A DNA stretch of 64,000 nt, from contig CALXYK010000016.1 of NCBI GenBank assembly GCA_944392955.1, forward strand, positions 1-64,000, in the 5' to 3' direction. The translations under genes and the position numbers were made by a program. This document shows positions 6,188 to 30,346 of the stretch, piece after piece. The notes under the pieces were generated by a model, which saw nothing but the letters and a program-made list of their open reading frames with translations, was not told where the DNA came from and did no database searches. Source of the DNA: an uncultured Alphaproteobacteria bacterium (GTDB lineage: Bacteria; Pseudomonadota; Alphaproteobacteria; Rs-D84; CACZYB01). Each line of letters begins with the position of its first letter. Position 1 is the first letter of the stretch.

Positions 6188-6264
6188 GGGTGATTAGCTC
6201 AGTTGGCTAGAGCATCTCGTTTACACCGAGGAGGTCTGGGGTTCGAGTCCCTAATCACCCACCA
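6188..6264 (+). tRNA. tRNA-Val (anticodon TAC), CCA encoded
   Basis: The acceptor stem GGGTGAT pairs with ATCACCC. The D arm (GCTCAGTTGGCTAGAGC), the anticodon loop TTTACAC and the T arm (GGGGTTCGAGTCCC) are all regular, and the 3' ACCA is encoded. It decodes GUA and other GUN valine codons. The 3' half overlaps, antisense, the end of a broken recombinase frame. No terminator follows it directly, consistent with insertion of foreign DNA right after the gene. Confidence 0.97.
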
Positions 6265-6974
6265 TTCTTCACAATCATCATTATTTAATAAAAAATCAAA
6301 CGGTTTAGCTATTGAAAATACTGCACTTTTCCCATTCAAAAAAGAGTTCGGACTAAGCATTTTTAAAATTGCACGTTTTTCACAAATGTCCGAACTTTCA
6401 AAGTAAAATGCAGAGTTTCCCAAGAAATCGATAACACTATCAACAATTTTATCTATTTCACTATTTATCAAAGTATATGATGCTAATTCTTCATTAAGTC
6501 TAACTTCTTCATTTGCAATTTCAGACATTTTTCTATCATAAATTTCTTTATCAATAGTTTTTTCAATAAGCAAATCAACACATCTACTTTTTTGAACACT
6601 TATTTCAGCTAACTTCTTTTCAACTTGATTTTTTAATAAAATTGTTTGTTCATACTCTTTTTCAAGCTTTTTTCTAACTGCTTCTTTAATAATTGGCAAC
6701 ATTTAGCGTCAACTTTTAATTTATTAAATACTTCATTTTCTAATTGTTTCAATATTAAATTTTCATTAACTCAAGGTTGGACACATGCACTATCATGATG
6801 ATAACATCTTAAATAAACATAAGACTTGTTGCCTTTAGTATGTCTTTCTAGCGTAATTGCACGTCCACAAGTTGCACATCTTAAAATTCCACTAAAAATA
6901 AAAGTATCAGATTGCTTTGTAAATGATGGTTTATATTTTCCAGAAACTACTTCCATATTCAGACTTTGCTCCAC
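6199..6974 (-). pseudogene. broken, 5'-truncated large serine recombinase
   Basis: Two reading-frame pieces make up the C-terminal half of a large serine recombinase. The upstream piece (6771-6974) has the recombinase zinc ribbon: FSGILRCATCG, a basic stretch, then CYHH and a final Cys. It stops at an in-frame TGA where a conserved aromatic residue would sit (CVQP-stop-VNENL). The downstream piece (6199-6702) is in another frame. It begins with the coiled-coil region and ends in residues read antisense through the tRNA-Val 3' end (WWVIRDSNPRPPR). The catalytic N-terminal domain with its active-site serine is absent. At least one nonsense change, one frameshift and one 5' deletion are therefore needed. 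It was probably the integrase of the island that begins at this tRNA. Confidence 0.85.
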
Positions 6975-7134
6975 TTAATTCATATTGTGGCAATACATTA
7001 GCAATATTAACAACAAGCATATCCAAACTAATATCTTCTTTTTTACATACCCTTTTTATTCTGTATTGGTAATCCTTTGCAGTATTAGGTTTATAGTTAT
7101 TTTGTAGCAACCAATTTTCAAATTTCTTTAACAT
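6931..7134 (-). pseudogene. truncated small ORF with SAM-like (integrase N-terminal) fold
   Basis: An open frame of 67 codons whose first ~60 residues (MLKKFENWLLQNNYK, then YQYRIKRVCKKEDISL) resemble the core-binding helical domain of tyrosine recombinases or a small stand-alone relative. The last codons run out of frame into the recombinase remnant, so the natural C-terminus seems to have been lost at a junction near 6950. Function unknown. It lies immediately upstream of the recombinase debris on the same strand. Confidence 0.5.
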
Positions 7135-7365
7135 TTTTTATACCTTTCGTTTTATTTTACATATCTATTATCCCAGGTTTTCCCTCAAAAGCACACAAAA
7201 AAACACATAAAAATAGCAAATATTGGCTAAAAACAGCCATTTTATGCAACTTTTTACATAAAAACACTCAATTTTGCTTAATTTTTGGGGATTTTAATTA
7301 TTTGTTATCTCTAAGTATTAACAAATATTTCAAGAAAACGTTTTATATCCAATAAAACTAATAAA
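7135..7365. other. non-coding AT-rich stretch
   Basis: No convincing gene on either strand. It contains one small hairpin (TGGCT/AGCCA, about 7214-7229), which could be a weak terminator or part of a leader, and runs of A. Confidence 0.4.
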
Positions 7366-11103: not shown

Positions 11104-11691
11104 ATGATTTATGGATATACTAGAGTTTCAACTGAACTACAAAACACCGAAAACCAAAAACACGAAATTCAAACCTTTGCAGAAGCCAATAAAATCACAA
11201 TAAATAAATGGGTGAATGAAGTAATTTCTTCCCGTAAATCATTAAAAGAAAGGCAACTAAGCAAACTTTTAAAACATCTTAAAAAAGGGGATATTTTGAT
11301 TGCATCAGAACTTTCAAGACTTGGCAGAAATTTACTTGAAGTTATGGGGATTTTACAAAATTGTCTTGAAAAAGATTGTCAAATTTGGACATTAAAAGAA
11401 AACTATAAACTTGGAGCAGATATTCAATCAAAAGTCCTTGCATTCGCTTTTTCGTTGGCTGCAGAAATCGAACGCCAACTTATTTCTCAACGCACAAAAG
11501 AGTCATTAAAAAGGCTTAAAGACGAAGGCAAACATCTTGGTAGACCATTTGGATTTAATTACAATAAACTTGCTTCTAAACAAGATAAAATCAAAGAATT
11601 GCTTGATAAACAAGTTTCCAAAGCAGAAATTGCAAGACTTTTAAATTGTTCATGGATAACACTACATAGATATATTCAAAAGTCATTATAA
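11104..11691 (+). CDS. Mpi/Hin-type serine DNA invertase
   Basis: Small serine recombinase of 195 residues. The N-terminal resolvase domain begins GYTRVST, with catalytic Ser9, and continues with SELSRLGRN, then VLAFAFSLAAEIERQLISQRT before the E helix. The C-terminal ~45 residues form a helix-turn-helix (KAEIARLLNCSWITLHRYI). The motifs and spacing are closest to the Bacteroides master invertase Mpi, which flips promoter segments. Expected function: inversion of DNA between short inverted repeats, or resolution. A candidate target lies directly upstream. AGGAG precedes the ATG. Confidence 0.9.
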   Translation: MIYGYTRVSTELQNTENQKHEIQTFAEANKITINKWVNEVISSRKSLKERQLSKLLKHLKKGDILIASELSRLGRNLLEVMGILQNCLEKDCQIWTLKENYKLGADIQSKVLAFAFSLAAEIERQLISQRTKESLKRLKDEGKHLGRPFGFNYNKLASKQDKIKELLDKQVSKAEIARLLNCSWITLHRYIQKSL

Positions 11692-11995: not shown

Positions 11996-12037
11996 AAATC
12001 CCCCTTTGCATCAAGGGGGATTTTAGTTTGTAATTAT
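11996..12037. repeat. 42-bp direct repeat (copy 1), terminator hairpin
   Basis: Identical over 42 bases to 16016-16057. It contains an 11-pair stem (AAATCCCCCTT/AAGGGGGATTT) with loop TGCATC, so it is also a transcription terminator. This copy ends the HAD phosphatase gene on the minus strand and includes its stop codon. Confidence 0.95.
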
Positions 12038-12837
12038 CTTGTTTTTTGAATAATATTTGACATATTCAAATGTTTCTGTTTTATTTTTTCTAGTATTATA
12101 ATTTCTGTTAACAAGGAGTTATAACTTGTAACAACAGAAACATCTTCTGGGAAAATACGACTTTTTCTATTTTCAAAATCTAACCCTATGAATATTGTTG
12201 TTGGTCTTTTTGTTGCTTTGTATTCAGACATTGCATCTCCTGTTGCAAAAATATTTTTATCAGGATATTGTTTTTCAATATCTTCTACCCATTCTGTTTT
12301 CTTTTTTTGAGATCCAAGAATTCCATCAAAATATTTATCTATATTATGATTTTTAAGAGATGCTTCTATCATATCATTTTCCATTCCAGTAAGAATATAT
12401 TGTTTTACACCTAAAAGATGTAGAAGTTCATGATATTCACCTGCCTTATCATACATTTTTCTATTCATATAATTTGGACGAATGTAATCGTTAAGATTTT
12501 CAGTGATTTTTTGTCCTTCTTCTAACGAAATTTCTTTTCCATAAACTGTTTTTAAAATATCTACGAAAATCATATTCATAGGCAAACCATGAGCAGAACG
12601 ATGAATTGCATTAACGGTTTCATCTTTTACAATTTTCCCATCTTTGTCAGTTTTACCTAACTGAGTTCTACAAAATTCACCTAAAAGTTCGTCTTTTACT
12701 AAATTTGTATCACAAATAGATCCATCATGATCCGCAAGGATTACCTTATCTTTAAAGAAATTTTTAAATAAATCAAAGTCCTGGTCTGTCATGCCTAAAA
12801 AGTTTTGAAGTTCTTTAATTCTACTAATATTTTTCAT
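12034..12837 (-). CDS. HAD-superfamily phosphatase (type I)
   Basis: 267 residues. HAD motif I is DHDGSICDT (nucleophile Asp and second Asp), motif II the Thr in ILTGME, motif III a Lys in SQKKKTEW, and motif IV GDAMSE. The helical cap lies between motifs I and II (about residues 55-135), as in phosphoglycolate or beta-phosphoglucomutase-like HADs. Expected reaction: dephosphorylation of a small phosphorylated metabolite in the cytoplasm, substrate unknown. It has its own promoter, an exact copy of the one upstream of the radical SAM gene, and its own terminator. It therefore belongs to the cassette as a separate transcription unit. Motif IV lacks the second Asp of GDxxxD at the usual place (GDAMSEY). 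Confidence 0.85.
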   Translation of the reverse strand: MKNISRIKELQNFLGMTDQDFDLFKNFFKDKVILADHDGSICDTNLVKDELLGEFCRTQLGKTDKDGKIVKDETVNAIHRSAHGLPMNMIFVDILKTVYGKEISLEEGQKITENLNDYIRPNYMNRKMYDKAGEYHELLHLLGVKQYILTGMENDMIEASLKNHNIDKYFDGILGSQKKKTEWVEDIEKQYPDKNIFATGDAMSEYKATKRPTTIFIGLDFENRKSRIFPEDVSVVTSYNSLLTEIIILEKIKQKHLNMSNIIQKTR

Positions 12838-12891
12838 TTTTTTTTCCTTTACATCTTTTAATTGCTTTTGATTCTTTTAGAATCTATTGAC

Positions 12892-12921
12892 TAAAATAAA
12901 CAAAAACAAATAAAATGTCAA
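12892..12921 (-). promoter_or_regulatory. duplicated promoter of the HAD gene (copy 1)
   Basis: Minus-strand TTGACA (12916-12921), 17 bases, TATTTT (12893-12898). The 30-base segment is identical to 15956-15985 upstream of the radical SAM gene, so the two genes should be expressed alike. Confidence 0.8.
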
Positions 12922-12959
12922 TATTTTTTTAAAATTTATGTGATAAAAAGTATTATTGA

Positions 12960-12992
12960 AGGGAAACCCTCCTTAATTTTAGAGGATTTCCC
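12960..12992 (-). terminator. terminator after the kinase gene
   Basis: GGGAAA and CCTC pair with GAGG and TTTCCC with one mismatch. The hairpin lies 10 bases after the kinase stop codon. The T run on the minus strand is poor, so efficiency is uncertain. Confidence 0.5.
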
Positions 12993-13001
12993 AATTTAGA
13001 A

Positions 13002-13787
13002 TTATCTTTGTTTTGAATTATCAAGTAAAATATTTTTGTTGGTTTTTGCTCTGATTTCTTTTGCAAAATCTTTTTTCCAACTATTAAATAATTTATTATA
13101 TTCTTCATTCATTTTAAAGTTATTAATTGCAATAATCATAATTACTTTTTTAGCTATTGAATCAACACTCCAATCTATTCCATTTAAATCCAAAGTATAA
13201 TTAGCCTTTGAATAAATAAAATCTACTCTTTTAAGAGTTCCCATATGACGGGTCATCCAACCTTCTTCTAAGGTTTTTCCCTCTTCTAAGGCTTTTTTGG
13301 CATCTTTTACATATCCTGAACGACGAGCCCAATTTTCATACCCTTTTTCTCCTGTAATTGGATTTATAGATTCTGAGTCATATCCTTTTAGATGTGCAAT
13401 TGAAACATTGATATCATTATTTAAAAATACTGTTTGAACTCCGTTATCTTTAAGTTTATCAAAAACTTCTTGATAACCTATATCGTATGATCCAAAACCT
13501 CCGAAATCAAGGACACTTTTTTCTTTAATATCGAACTGATTCATTAAGAGTTCTTTTTCATATTTTCTCCATTCAAGTTCGCCTTCGTTGTTAATAATAT
13601 CTTTTGGTAAAACATTTCTATTTTCCAAAGTTTTTTGTTTTAAAGTTGCATCAACATTTACAACTTCACGATCAAGCATTTCACCAATTTTTTTACTTAC
13701 AGTTGTTTTTCCTGTTCCAGGAATACCTAAAACACCAAAAGTAGGTAATTCATTGTTAAGTTTATACATTAATGATACATTTTTCAT
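13002..13787 (-). CDS. shikimate-kinase-like P-loop kinase
   Basis: 261 residues. The N-terminus has a Walker A motif GIPGTGKTT, followed by VNVDATLKQKT. That is the position of the acidic substrate-binding residue in shikimate and gluconate kinases. Further on, WRKYEKELL and SVLDFGGFG are equivalent to the FRxLExxxL and GGG segments of AroK. A C-terminal extension of about 80 residues goes beyond AroK length. The likely activity is ATP-dependent phosphorylation of a small hydroxylated molecule; the substrate need not be shikimate. It starts two bases after the stop of the HAD-IIA gene, so the pair is almost certainly co-translated. Confidence 0.8.
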   Translation of the reverse strand: MKNVSLMYKLNNELPTFGVLGIPGTGKTTVSKKIGEMLDREVVNVDATLKQKTLENRNVLPKDIINNEGELEWRKYEKELLMNQFDIKEKSVLDFGGFGSYDIGYQEVFDKLKDNGVQTVFLNNDINVSIAHLKGYDSESINPITGEKGYENWARRSGYVKDAKKALEEGKTLEEGWMTRHMGTLKRVDFIYSKANYTLDLNGIDWSVDSIAKKVIMIIAINNFKMNEEYNKLFNSWKKDFAKEIRAKTNKNILLDNSKQR

Positions 13788-13789
13788 TT

Positions 13790-14842
13790 TTAGTTCCTTT
13801 CATTTTGTTTAAGTAGTGTAAAATTTAAAGTTGTACCTTCGTTATATCCTGCAACTGAATATATTAAAAAGTCAGGATAACTTTTTTTCTCTGCACAAAG
13901 GTTATCAAGAATATTAAAATCAATCTGTTTGTTTTTTTTAATTATATCCCTTGTAACTCCGGTTTCAGTAGTAAGTATGGTTTGTATTCCTGCCTGATTT
14001 CCACCACGAATATCAGTATCCATATTATCCCCAATAATGGCAATACGACTTTTATCTATACTTATGCCATTTAAATCAAGAATTTTAAATATATAATCAA
14101 ATGCATTTTTGTGTGGTTTTCCAATTTCAACAACTTCTCCTCCAAGATTTTTATAATACTGGACAAGAGCACCTTGGGTTAAACCATATTTTGTTGATTG
14201 ATTTGTAATATCATTTTTAATAGTTCCTACATCAGGATTTGCATTAAATCCAGGAAGATTAAGTTTTTTTACTTTTTCAAACTCACCTTTAAAAATCTCA
14301 GGAGTTGTTATGGAGTATTGTTTTTTTAATCCATCATTACTTACTTTTGATAGAAAAAATTTACCACTGAATTCTGGGGAAAGAGTTGTTGTTTCTTGCT
14401 CAGTTAATTGAGGAACTCCAAAATAGAAAAAATCCGCCTCCTCAATATTTTCAACAGAATTATATATTGTATTTTTAAATAATTTATCGTTTTTCATTCC
14501 TATTGTATAATAGTTTATAGGATGAGAATTAGTTTTGAATTTTAATTTACCATTTAACAAAAAATCACGTGCAATTTCCCCAGAAGTAATAGCCTTATCA
14601 TAATGAATTCCTTTAATAATACCTTTTTTAGCATAATTATTTTCAAATTCATCACTAAGTTGTGTTCCATTTGATAAAATATAGATAATTTTACCTGCCT
14701 TCCTTAAAGTTTCCATAGTTTCAGGTATATTTTTATATATTTGTTTACCACTCCAAATAACTCCATAAACATCAAAGACAAAGACATCAAAATTATTCAT
14801 TATGTCTTTGATATTTCTAAAAATTAAATGGTCCATATACAT
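13790..14842 (-). CDS. HAD-superfamily class IIA hydrolase (TIGR01459-like)
   Basis: 350 residues. Motif I is FDVYGVIWSG. The residue two after the nucleophile is Tyr instead of Asp, as is usual for the HAD-IIA subgroup with DVWGV, often seen in alphaproteobacteria. Motif II is YILSNGTQ, motif III GKPHKNAFDY, motif IV IGDNMDTDIRGG, and a C2-type cap lies between. Relatives are NagD and nitrophenyl- or pyridoxal-phosphate phosphatases. Substrate unknown. It is the first gene of a two-gene unit with the kinase and is preceded by its own promoter. A kinase and a phosphatase side by side suggest activation followed by removal of a phosphate in a small pathway. Confidence 0.85.
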   Translation of the reverse strand: MYMDHLIFRNIKDIMNNFDVFVFDVYGVIWSGKQIYKNIPETMETLRKAGKIIYILSNGTQLSDEFENNYAKKGIIKGIHYDKAITSGEIARDFLLNGKLKFKTNSHPINYYTIGMKNDKLFKNTIYNSVENIEEADFFYFGVPQLTEQETTTLSPEFSGKFFLSKVSNDGLKKQYSITTPEIFKGEFEKVKKLNLPGFNANPDVGTIKNDITNQSTKYGLTQGALVQYYKNLGGEVVEIGKPHKNAFDYIFKILDLNGISIDKSRIAIIGDNMDTDIRGGNQAGIQTILTTETGVTRDIIKKNKQIDFNILDNLCAEKKSYPDFLIYSVAGYNEGTTLNFTLLKQNERN

Positions 14843-14876
14843 TTTAATCCTTCTTATCTTGTATTTTAATTTTCAC

Positions 14877-14904
14877 ATTTTAATACAAAATTTTACAAAG
14901 TCAA
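14877..14904 (-). promoter_or_regulatory. promoter of the HAD-IIA/kinase pair
   Basis: Minus-strand TTGACT (14899-14904), 16 bases, TAAAAT (14877-14882), placed 35 bases before the start codon. Confidence 0.6.
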
Positions 14905-14932
14905 TACTTTTTGTCAAAAAGCGCTGACTATT

Positions 14933-15928
14933 TTATCTTGTTTTTAAATTTTCCTTTATTGCTTGAATCTGTGAACTATGTGGTTTAAACATACAAGTTT
15001 TACAAGGTGTAGGAATAGTATCTCTATCAAAATCATAAGTTAATGATTTTATCATAGGAATACCTTTTGCGTAAATATCCCATATTTTTTCATCATTTAT
15101 ATTGCCAAAAATATATGGTTTATGAGTATCTGTCATAGCACCGGTGAAATTCGTACAAAGAGAAACATCTCCATTTGCATCAATGCCTAAAAAATGACCT
15201 ATTTGCGAACAAGGCTCAGTTCTTTCCCCTTGTTCTCCTGTTTTTACAGATTCTGCCCTATTACAACCAAGTTTTGTTAAATTTTTTGCATATATAACAA
15301 ACTCCTTATCTTCCCCATAATCTGAAATTTTCCATTCATAATAGTAGCCGTCTAAAATTTTTGTTTTATTTGTATCAATGTTTATATTGAGTCTTGTTAT
15401 ATATTCATCAAGTCCAGATTCTGCAAATTCACGACTAAATTCAATTCTATCTTTTTCATTTTTAGGATAAATCTGTATATTCATTCCTGTTAATCCAGCC
15501 TCACAAAGTTTGTCTAGTTTTTCGCGAGTTAGCAAAGAGCCATTCGTATTAAATCCGATTTTTCTACATTTAGGAAGTGAACCTTTTATAAATTTTACCC
15601 TTTTGCAAAGTTCATCAATATCCATAAGTAATGCTTCGTTATAGCGAATTAATGAGATATTGCCAGAGTAATCAACTTCTTTTAATTCGTTGATAAATTT
15701 TTCAAATGTAATCCATGGCATAATATAATCTTCTTTTGGATCTTTTTTATTACATTTTGGACACCATTTACAAATACCAGTTCCTGCAAAATTACAATTA
15801 TTATTAAGTGCTAAATCTATATTTGCATTTACATTGTTTGCAAATATGTCTTTATTACTACCTTCAAAAATTAAACTGTTTATATTTGCATATCCATCAG
15901 AAATATTAGTCTTTTTTAGTATATTCAT
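14933..15928 (-). CDS. radical SAM enzyme with SPASM-like C-terminus
   Basis: 331 residues. The cluster-binding motif CNFAGTGICKWC has the spacing CX7CX2C instead of CX3CX2C. The rest of the barrel is recognisable, including FNTNGSLL and MNIQIYPK. The C-terminal third resembles a SPASM/twitch domain: PCSQIGHFLGIDANGDVSLC, then FGNINDEKIWDI and PCKTCM, able to hold at least one auxiliary Fe-S cluster. Such enzymes do radical dehydrogenation or peptide and sugar modification. No precursor peptide was found next to it, so a small-molecule substrate, perhaps phosphorylated, is more likely given the HAD and kinase neighbours. It is transcribed from the duplicated promoter. Confidence 0.82.
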   Translation of the reverse strand: MNILKKTNISDGYANINSLIFEGSNKDIFANNVNANIDLALNNNCNFAGTGICKWCPKCNKKDPKEDYIMPWITFEKFINELKEVDYSGNISLIRYNEALLMDIDELCKRVKFIKGSLPKCRKIGFNTNGSLLTREKLDKLCEAGLTGMNIQIYPKNEKDRIEFSREFAESGLDEYITRLNINIDTNKTKILDGYYYEWKISDYGEDKEFVIYAKNLTKLGCNRAESVKTGEQGERTEPCSQIGHFLGIDANGDVSLCTNFTGAMTDTHKPYIFGNINDEKIWDIYAKGIPMIKSLTYDFDRDTIPTPCKTCMFKPHSSQIQAIKENLKTR

Positions 15929-15955: not shown

Positions 15956-15985
15956 TAAAATAAACAAAAACAAATAAAATGTCAA
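15956..15985 (-). promoter_or_regulatory. duplicated promoter of the radical SAM gene (copy 2)
   Basis: Minus-strand TTGACA (15980-15985), 17 bases, TATTTT (15957-15962); identical over 30 bases to 12892-12921. Confidence 0.8.
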
Positions 15986-16015: not shown

Positions 16016-16057
16016 AAATCCCCCTTTGCATCAAGGGGGATTTTAGTTTGTAATTAT
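16016..16057. repeat. 42-bp direct repeat (copy 2), terminator hairpin
   Basis: Exact copy of 11996-12037. Here it terminates the leftward unit of two secreted proteins, three bases after the stop codon at 16061. The two copies bracket the radical SAM/HAD/kinase block. Confidence 0.95.
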
Positions 16058-16060
16058 ATA

Positions 16061-16957
16061 TTAAAGTGAATTTAGGACATTTTCACATTTTTCTGCCCTT
16101 TCCAAATCTTTTTTAGCCTTATCTATTGATACAGCAGATAAAACAGTAGAAGTTCCAGAAAGTCCTGTTGTAACACCTGCTAATATATTAGAAGCTAAAT
16201 TCAAATTTTTCTCTTTTTTCTTTCCCTTTTCACTATCATCGCCTCTTACTTTATCACTATTAGCAAGCGCAGAAGTAATTGCTCCTGTTGAAGCAGTCCC
16301 AAATCCTATACCACTTACTATTGTATTAGCAGTAGAAATAGATTTTAACTTATTAATATTATCCTTATCAAATTCAGAGCAAGCAGAAAGAATCTTGTTT
16401 GCAGGTTCACTTTTTTCTTCTAATGCCTCTAACCTTCCACGAGCGATTTTTAAAGATTTTAAATCATTATTACATTTTTCCATCTTTTGTGCCAAATCTT
16501 TTGCACCCAAAGTTGCTCCTACAGAAGTTCCCACTGAAACAACGGAGGTCAAAGTCGCCCCTGCAAGAAGACCTGTTCTAACATTTCCTAATTTTTTTGA
16601 CTCCTTGTTTTCGGAATTTATTTCTTCTTGTAATTGGGTTAGTTCTTGAAGCATTTCATCATAAGTCATAGAGGCGACACTTTTATAAAGGTTTTCTATA
16701 TTCTCATCTTTTTTTGCCTTCATTATACCAGTTGCCAAAGCCCCTCCTGCCGCAATAGTTCCTAAACCGGAAGAAACAGCGGTTGCCGTAGAAAGTCCCA
16801 AAATACTACTTAGATTAGATTTTATACCGGAGCAAGACTCTTTTACATTAGAAATTTGTAAGTTAACTAAATTTTTTGCCTCAGTTATTTCATTTGCTTT
16901 TGTTAACGAAGTAAATGTTAATATAAAACTTAATGTTAATATTGAAATTTTTTTCAT
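16061..16957 (-). CDS. exported protein with Gly/Ala-rich hydrophobic segments
   Basis: 298 residues with a signal peptide (KKISILTLSFILTFTSLTKA). The mature part alternates charged helical stretches with three small-residue-rich hydrophobic segments (about 55-80, 125-150 and 210-230), and another Gly/Ser/Thr-rich one near 255-275. All could insert into a membrane. Cysteines at the start of the mature part, in MEKCNND, in LSACSE and near the C-terminus (AEKCENV) could form disulfides. No recognised family. It follows the other secreted protein by 23 bases and shares its signal-peptide sequence style, so the two form one unit. Confidence 0.75.
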   Translation of the reverse strand: MKKISILTLSFILTFTSLTKANEITEAKNLVNLQISNVKESCSGIKSNLSSILGLSTATAVSSGLGTIAAGGALATGIMKAKKDENIENLYKSVASMTYDEMLQELTQLQEEINSENKESKKLGNVRTGLLAGATLTSVVSVGTSVGATLGAKDLAQKMEKCNNDLKSLKIARGRLEALEEKSEPANKILSACSEFDKDNINKLKSISTANTIVSGIGFGTASTGAITSALANSDKVRGDDSEKGKKKEKNLNLASNILAGVTTGLSGTSTVLSAVSIDKAKKDLERAEKCENVLNSL

Positions 16958-29413: not shown

Positions 29414-30346
29414 CTATAAATCCCTAAATTGTTTTATCTTTAACATATCTTCCAAAGATAATTTTTTAATATTAAAATGATAATGTAAAACATCAGGCAA
29501 TTTCATATAATCACCATAAATACAGGTCAAATATATTTCTGAATTAGCCGGAGCAAAAAATTTACTCCCCTCAAATTCAATTTCTTTTAATGGAAAAATA
29601 TCTTTGTAATCAAAGGCTATACAATTCCAATAATGAAGAAAATCTATGCCATAAAAAATCGTTGCCTCATCAAAGTTTTTAACTATGTTTACACCCGGTA
29701 TTGTTTCTGTATAATATCTTTCATACTTGTAATCATACGATGTCAAAGTTTTGGATTTAACATTTTTCTTATTAAATTTAACCGCCATATTTTGAAGATC
29801 CGATGAAAATTTAAACTTCTCTTTTAATGACATTTTGCCTTCCTTTACATCACAAGGGAAAATATCTATAAATAAGAACGGAATATCCTGATTTACTATT
29901 TTAATAATCCTATATTTTTTCTTTGACCAAAAAACAGCCTTTAAGTTTTTATAAGTAGTTTTTTCATTAAATACCCGCACAAATTTTTTATAATCATCTC
30001 TTAACATAGAAATATCAATATCATCGTCCCATGGAATATATTTACCGGACCTAACCGCCCCCAATAATGACCCAAAACTAAGCCAGTATTTAATATTTTC
30101 TTCTCTACAAATTCTATCTACTTCTTTTAAAATCTTTAATGTGCATAATTGAATATCTCTCAATATTCCCGAAGCAGGTGGAATTTTATCAACAGCCAAA
30201 GACATTTTAAATAAATCTGATAAATCTTTTAATTCATATGCAACTGAATTTCTAATAAACTTTGTATGTAAATTTTTTCTAAGTCTATCTCTACGCATCT
30301 GAGACGGCACAAACAAACACACAAAATTGATAAAAAGTTTTTTCAT
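29414..30346 (-). CDS. LicD-family phosphotransferase
   Basis: 310 residues. The LicD/fukutin-related nucleotidyltransferase fold is shown by YWLSFGSLLGAVRSGKYIPWDDDIDISM, with the GSLLG, DDDID metal-binding aspartates. LicD enzymes move phosphocholine, and eukaryotic relatives ribitol-phosphate or glycerol-phosphate, from a CDP donor to a sugar. The tandem TagD-like gene suggests a glycerol-phosphate-type donor here. The N-terminus is basic and slightly hydrophobic, without a clear signal. The gene is preceded by a structured RNA with terminator, possibly controlling it. Confidence 0.82.
   Translation of the reverse strand: MKKLFINFVCLFVPSQMRRDRLRKNLHTKFIRNSVAYELKDLSDLFKMSLAVDKIPPASGILRDIQLCTLKILKEVDRICREENIKYWLSFGSLLGAVRSGKYIPWDDDIDISMLRDDYKKFVRVFNEKTTYKNLKAVFWSKKKYRIIKIVNQDIPFLFIDIFPCDVKEGKMSLKEKFKFSSDLQNMAVKFNKKNVKSKTLTSYDYKYERYYTETIPGVNIVKNFDEATIFYGIDFLHYWNCIAFDYKDIFPLKEIEFEGSKFFAPANSEIYLTCIYGDYMKLPDVLHYHFNIKKLSLEDMLKIKQFRDL

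Follow-up and report, generated by a model that had tools for sequence, protein, structure and literature searches.

A four-gene radical SAM, kinase and HAD cassette linked to KdsB in one alphaproteobacterial genus: a possible module for modifying a Kdo-like sugar acid

The window analyzed here is a 64,000-nucleotide stretch of DNA from an uncultured gut alphaproteobacterium, belonging to contig C16 of its very small source genome (G000; 915 kb in 17 contigs). Four intact open reading frames (ORFs), all on the minus strand and together spanning positions 12034-15928, encode a radical SAM protein (rSAM), a HAD-IIA protein, a kinase with a shikimate-kinase fold and a second, divergent HAD protein (HAD1). 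A first-pass annotation, made by a model from the sequence without database searches, had described the four ORFs as a cassette of unknown pathway, and both their positions and their families were confirmed. The genomic links of the cassette, which that annotation did not contain, point to activation of 3-deoxy-octulosonate (Kdo) and to a surface glycan.

Promoter-like sites of the TTGACA type precede the rSAM, HAD-IIA and HAD1 genes, making plausible the three transcription units proposed in the first pass. The translational pairing of HAD-IIA with the kinase, also proposed there, agrees with the 2-nt gap between the HAD-IIA stop codon and the kinase gene in the window, but in relatives the operon pairing varies: HAD-IIA with the kinase, the kinase with HAD1, or HAD-IIA with rSAM. 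The sites upstream of rSAM and HAD1 are identical 30-nt copies (Table 1); no third copy was found in the G000 genome and the relatives carry none; the two copies may serve regulation or may have arisen by recent duplication. A strong terminator-like stem lies in the left flank of the cassette. A perfect 42-nt repeat, with two copies in the whole genome, brackets the four genes exactly, suggesting that the cassette was inserted, or is possibly excisable, as a unit. Between species, the ratio of nonsynonymous to synonymous substitution rates (dN/dS) was 0.07-0.13 for rSAM, the kinase and HAD1, and 0.21-0.36 for HAD-IIA, indicating that all four genes are maintained by purifying selection.

Table 1. 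Features of the cassette and its flanks (window coordinates)
Feature	Position	Strand	Basis
Radical SAM protein (rSAM), 331 aa, BtrN-like	14933..15928	-	ORF, profile matches
HAD-IIA (NagD-like) TIGR01459 protein, 350 aa	13790..14842	-	ORF, profile match
Shikimate-kinase-fold P-loop kinase, 261 aa, extended lid and C-terminus	13002..13787	-	ORF, Pfam SKI
HAD1, divergent HAD phosphatase, 267 aa	12034..12837	-	ORF, HAD motifs
Promoter-like sequence of 30 nt upstream of rSAM, TTGACATTTTATTTGTTTTTGTTTATTTTA	15956..15985	-	
The identical 30-nt promoter-like sequence repeated upstream of HAD1	12892..12921	-	
Promoter-like TTGACA-16-TAAAAT, upstream of HAD-IIA-kinase; 11/12 consensus matches	14890..14917	-	
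42-nt direct repeat, left copy, terminator-like stem	11996..12037	.	
42-nt direct repeat, right copy, 3' end of gene 16061-16957	16016..16057	.	
Mpi-type serine recombinase adjoining the cassette	11104..11691	+	

Genomes of the genus (n=6), the family, the order (n=191-201) and a class sample (n=385) were searched for the cassette. Of the 201 order genomes, four contained the kinase, and these belong to a single genus (G000, G001, G002 and G003, four of its six members); in the class sample it appeared only in the window's own genome. rSAM occurred in the same four order genomes, and G007, which belongs to another genus of the family, has a relative with 35% identity; HAD1 occurred in three of the four cassette genomes. 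A profile search of genome contigs for rSAM returned just three of the four known loci and the G007 locus. No relatives of the kinase, rSAM or HAD1 were found in viral contigs, and none of the kinase or HAD1 in plasmids; a match of the kinase in phage MT836997 was set aside because the protein is an ordinary fusion of shikimate dehydrogenase with shikimate kinase. Matches in named collections were metagenome-assembled genomes (MAGs) that carry the labels Alphaproteobacteria (water deer rectum), 'bacterium' or Rickettsiales. The cassette is restricted to one lineage, a genus whose host-associated members are known from MAGs.

Whether the families co-occur elsewhere had been set beforehand as a check: they are found together in three other species of the genus (without a detected HAD1 in one) and nowhere else searched. 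A chance figure of 1 in C(201,4) for this coincidence is overstated, because the genomes belong to one genus, within which the same coincidence has a chance of 1 in 15. More telling is the persistence of gene content through changes of gene order. The order is rSAM / HAD-IIA-kinase / HAD1 in G000 and HAD-IIA-rSAM / kinase-HAD1 in G003; in G002, HAD-IIA and kinase-HAD1 are separated from rSAM by a gene trio containing KdsB; and in G001, the kinase follows a family 2 glycosyltransferase (GT2) gene and HAD-IIA, with rSAM on a separate contig. The four genes thus behave as a functional unit, as the first pass had supposed: they are co-inherited and kept together despite reshuffling.

In G003 the cassette lies beside a tRNA-Val(tac), and in G000 about 6 kb separate it from this tRNA; a tRNA-Arg(tct) adjoins the cassette in G002 and rSAM in G001. 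The Mpi-type recombinase has a 150-bp relic, 88.7% identical, near the G003 cassette (L033 15842-15991) and a further copy of 73% identity in G000 itself (C13 615-1164), and probably reflects mobility, not a part of the pathway. Inverted repeats near the recombinase form no obvious invertible promoter. From the reshuffled order, the varied tRNA sites and the recombinase, the set looks like island cargo, mobile yet kept together. The window's tRNA-Val is overlapped by a 167-aa minus-strand ORF (6188-6702), with the tRNA sequence encoding its C-terminus, DSNPRPPRCKRDALAN; by eye this ORF resembles a recombinase remnant at an integration site, and it had no Pfam match. About 330 bp nearby (7022-7351) are 95% identical to the extreme end of G000 contig C5, probably an assembly-breaking repeat.

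rSAM matched the SPASM profile with 31.5 bits and the Radical_SAM profile (PF04055) with 28.2 bits (E 2.5e-6), slightly below the cut-off of 29.5. The latter score and a profile match to BtrN (E about 1e-11), mostly over the core, identified the radical SAM barrel. BtrN was the top match in both sequence and fold, and viperin was a further fold match; the model used had low pLDDT, and the fold search is supportive for the core alone. In place of a CX3CX2C motif, all four genus members have C45-X7-C53-X2-C56. Homologues from Ciceribacter and Edwardsiella have CX3CX2C without the insertion, whereas the insertion in the G007 relative is longer still. Because a Cx7Cx2C motif has been described for the radical SAM methyltransferase PoyC (PMC5682303), the variant can be functional. 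A fourth nearby cysteine, C59, is variable (Gly in G002), and C45, C53 and C56 are therefore the most likely ligands of the predicted radical SAM cluster.

The seven-cysteine SPASM motif is CX9-15GX4C-gap-CX2CX5CX3C-gap-C (PMC6231123), of which the C-terminal domain of rSAM has only C240-X12-G-X4-C258 and C309-X2-C312. These four cysteines occur in the order expected from BtrN in all four full-length homologues and are predicted to ligate a cluster. The SPASM label of the first-pass annotation stands as a profile match, but judging from its cysteines the domain is of the four-Cys twitch type, not a full SPASM. The Edwardsiella relatives of rSAM have genes for an AraC-type regulator, an acyltransferase, a sialidase and a patatin as neighbors, without kinase or HAD genes among them. 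A second, short radical SAM protein adjoins an NrtR-type Nudix regulator in G002 (L030 17622-19226), also occurs in G001 (L032) and is absent from G000.

The kinase matched Pfam SKI with 40.2 bits (cut-off 22.1; E 4.9e-10). Its Walker A motif, G21-x-P-G-T-G-K27, is accompanied by D46 and R74, which PDB alignments place on D34 and R58 of Mycobacterium tuberculosis shikimate kinase. Against the AroK equivalog it reached 38.9 bits, compared with a cut-off of 204. Since a separate full-length AroK of 183 aa is encoded on G000 contig C10, the cassette kinase is a paralogue and not the AroK of this genome. R58 and R136 of shikimate kinase touch the substrate carboxyl (PMC3646032), and because of these contacts with the shikimate carboxylate, a polyhydroxy acid would be the most economical guess for the substrate of the cassette kinase. 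A full-length shikimate kinase (about 140 bits; L055 1447-1998 on G000 contig C10), whose Gly-rich loop reads GEGA and not GGG, is present in 9 of 10 family and order genomes. It appears as an orphan AroK in a reduced genome, with 3-dehydroquinate (DHQ) synthase (PF01761) in none of these ten genomes.

The HAD-IIA protein reached 113.6 bits against TIGR01459, above the curated cut-off of 103.75. Its motif I is DVYGV (D24-V-Y26), with Tyr at the D+2 position; Ser57, Lys242 and Asp272/Asp277 are retained. The family assignment of the first pass was thus borne out, but the second Asp usual for motif I of a phosphatase is missing, and Asp at D+2 occurs in none of the aligned family members. The protein may serve in binding, as a slow phosphatase or in something else. 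In a phylogeny, the cassette HAD-IIA and the KdsB-linked HAD-IIA described below formed two separate clades (support 100/100). HAD1 scored 19.9 bits with HAD_2, under the cut-off of 23.8, yet all four HAD motifs are present: D36-H-D38, which forms the DxD of motif I, T150, K178-180 and D201/E205.

In G001, G002 and G003 the cassette divergently adjoins a HAD-IA gene followed by KdsB (CMP-Kdo synthetase), with a histidine-phosphatase-family gene between in G003. A second TIGR01459 HAD-IIA gene follows KdsB in G001 and G002, and the G002 cassette encloses the resulting HAD-IA-KdsB-HAD-IIA trio. The rSAM relative of G007 lies divergently beside another KdsB-like gene, and a TIGR01459 gene lies close to KdsB in G014. 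KdsA is present in the genus, and G000 has one KdsB. Glycosyltransferase clusters occur on G000 contigs C10 and C14, and candidates for LpxA and LpxI were read by eye on C10. Neighbors of the cassette include the GT2 gene in G001 and, in G001 and G002, glmS and a gene resembling hexapeptide sugar acetyltransferases. Loci with glycosyltransferase genes also hold remote relatives of rSAM, in Ciceribacter together with dTDP-sugar genes and in Sinorhizobium with ABC-transporter genes.

The conserved trio itself was located at L030 10204-12736, L034 2835-5421 and L088 7328-8399. Its HAD-IA could be a stand-in Kdo-8-phosphate phosphatase. At the trio locus of G005, which has no cassette, HAD-IIA is a 96-aa remnant, motif I of HAD-IA reads DVDEV and KdsB is missing, with KdsA kept; G005 may encode KdsB at another site or may have lost Kdo. 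A second KdsB is encoded in G003 (L038 1-423). Beside a glycosyltransferase cluster, L132 8668-11710 (G000:C10 68668-71710) holds in a row candidates, assigned by eye, for an archaeal-type SAM synthetase, a P-loop kinase and an alanyl-tRNA-synthetase-like protein.

We tentatively interpret the cassette as a four-enzyme module that may modify a polyhydroxylated sugar acid, Kdo-like or closely related to that type, destined for a surface glycan. The substrate, order of steps, product and destination, as we infer them, would be as follows. Using its retained Arg and Asp, the kinase would bind the acid and phosphorylate a hydroxyl; the BtrN-like rSAM would take a hydrogen atom from the carbinol carbon to give a ketone (or an inversion), with the twitch [4Fe-4S] cluster accepting an electron during the oxidation; one or both HAD proteins would remove the phosphate; and the neighboring KdsB would activate the product as a CMP-sugar, which would then be transferred to an outer-membrane glycan. 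Co-inheritance, retention across rearrangements and different tRNA-linked sites, and the link to KdsB, which extends to the G007 relative of rSAM and to the paralogy of the two HAD-IIA proteins, support such a sugar-acid route. The separate AroK, together with the retained D46 and R74, supports a sugar acid as the kinase substrate; the likeness to BtrN and the four-Cys twitch layout support a dehydrogenase role for rSAM; and the rSAM relatives in polysaccharide loci, with the GT2, acetyltransferase and glmS neighbors, support a surface-glycan destination. More doubtful is the fuller proposal of an undescribed route in which a phosphorylated sugar acid would be oxidized or epimerized by a CX7CX2C twitch enzyme to yield a modified Kdo-like ulosonic acid.

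Several observations weigh against this interpretation. All four cassette genomes belong to one genus, so that the co-occurrence is close to a single evolutionary event, and HAD1 was not found in G001. In G000 the trio lies on a different contig from the cassette (C6, L034), indicating that adjacency is not obligatory, and the KdsB neighborhood may be a mere marker of a glycan hot spot. Asp32 of shikimate kinase is missing from the cassette kinase (N/G44 at that position), whose invariant R187, in LKR(V/I)DF, was matched to Arg136 by eye, in a region where the profile alignment is unreliable. HAD-IIA has no acid/base residue at D+2, making phosphatase activity uncertain. Predicted structures, built from shallow alignments, were poor (pLDDT 43.5 for the kinase and 52.9 for rSAM), too poor for modelling of binding. 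Moreover, prediction of function by similarity is unreliable for twitch and SPASM enzymes (PMC6231123).

A similar module might instead yield a polyol or sugar, phosphorylated or otherwise activated, for transfer as a phosphodiester in the manner of LicD, rather than a CMP-Kdo-like acid. A LicD-family gene lies 13.5 kb from the cassette in the window (29414-30346), and TIGR01459 HAD genes of Aminobacter adjoin FGGY carbohydrate kinases. We keep this unlikely alternative because three of the four cassette genomes encode LicD and a search of seven further genomes of the family detected it in none. However, G003 has a complete cassette without LicD, LicD is patchy in the order and occurs in cassette-free order genomes too, the two are on one contig in G000 and G001 without being neighbors, and no gene of a CDP-polyol pathway was noted beside the cassette. 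About as improbable, and slightly more so, is a dispensable function in metabolite repair or salvage, with the HAD proteins clearing phosphate esters that are toxic, rSAM and the kinase acting on unrelated by-products, and an island hot spot as the place where the genes came together. Promiscuous phosphatases are known among HAD-IIA proteins, and absence of the cassette from two genus members, the tRNA-linked sites and the nearby recombinase would suit such a role; persistence of the genes together over several rearrangements and dN/dS near 0.1 would not, and a twitch radical SAM enzyme would be unusual for repair.

The first-pass annotation had envisaged a modified sugar, a cyclitol or a cofactor-like metabolite. 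Enzyme classes and neighbors fit a sugar route; neither the cyclitol nor the cofactor was supported. By analogy, a cyclitol or aminocyclitol route could be drawn from BtrN, the nearest solved relative of rSAM, and from the shikimate kinase fold of the kinase. It is weakened, to the point of being quite improbable, because no sugar-phosphate cyclase of the DHQ-synthase family (PF01761) was detected in ten genomes, in a search whose control was positive in 11 reference genomes and which did not extend to myo-inositol-1-phosphate synthase, and because a DegT/DnrJ aminotransferase is absent from three of the four cassette genomes (G000, G001 and G003). The least probable of the alternatives we considered is that rSAM matures a peptide, as SPASM maturases of ribosomally synthesized and post-translationally modified peptides do, with the other genes as accessories. 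The top NCBIfam relatives of rSAM are SPASM peptide and protein maturases, but all score far under their cut-offs, the PDB relative is BtrN and not a peptide maturase, and the seven-Cys signature is missing. Besides the four enzymes, the cassette strand has no ORF of at least 80 aa; shorter precursor ORFs were not tested.

If the Kdo-like sugar-acid route were correct, it would bring oxygen-sensitive radical chemistry to an inner lipopolysaccharide or surface sugar of host-associated alphaproteobacteria. Kdo and its variants anchor Gram-negative lipopolysaccharide, and with a radical route that pathway would gain a further type of reaction. Such a route would also give a function to a twitch radical SAM subgroup whose cluster motif is unusual, a shikimate-kinase paralogue and the uncharacterized TIGR01459 HAD family; were it just a species-specific glycan decoration, the finding would be modest. 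Linkage to KdsB narrows a bare 'unknown pathway' to a short list of substrates.

No pathway of this composition was found in openly licensed papers searched for the gene combination, for TIGR01459 and for radical SAM enzymes in a lipopolysaccharide context, and no named cluster or family fitting the four genes was found; the first pass had likewise known of no such cluster. Each component falls in an established superfamily; what was new to the searches made is their combination, along with the CX7CX2C twitch dehydrogenase-like enzyme. The closest known counterpart of rSAM, BtrN, is the 2-deoxy-scyllo-inosamine dehydrogenase of butirosin biosynthesis (PDB 4m7s/4m7t), a twitch enzyme acting on a secondary alcohol of a cyclitol, with a twitch domain of the same layout, in which four cysteines ligate one auxiliary [4Fe-4S] cluster. 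BtrN has CX3CX2C, whereas the cassette enzyme has a four-residue insertion, and butirosin-type genes are absent around it. With AroK (PF01202), the kinase shares the P-loop, the D34-type Asp, the R58-type Arg and the Gly-rich loop, but it has some 70 additional residues (261 aa, against 180-192 aa for the AroKs of the same order), with a longer lid and C-terminus, has no Asp32 and falls far under every AroK equivalog cut-off. In TIGR01459 (HAD-SF-IIA-hyp4), Asp at D+2 is likewise absent (DVWGV in PDB 6nq4, DVYGV in the cassette); within this uncharacterized family, the cassette protein is a genus-specific paralogue separate from the KdsB-linked copy. In the 8-amino-Kdo route of Shewanella, an alcohol dehydrogenase and an aminotransferase are encoded beside the kdsB gene. 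Modification of Kdo through oxidation of a carbinol, by genes beside KdsB, would be common to both systems; here, however, the dehydrogenase candidate is a radical SAM enzyme, accompanied by a kinase and candidate phosphatases instead of a DegT aminotransferase, which G000, G001 and G003 lack.

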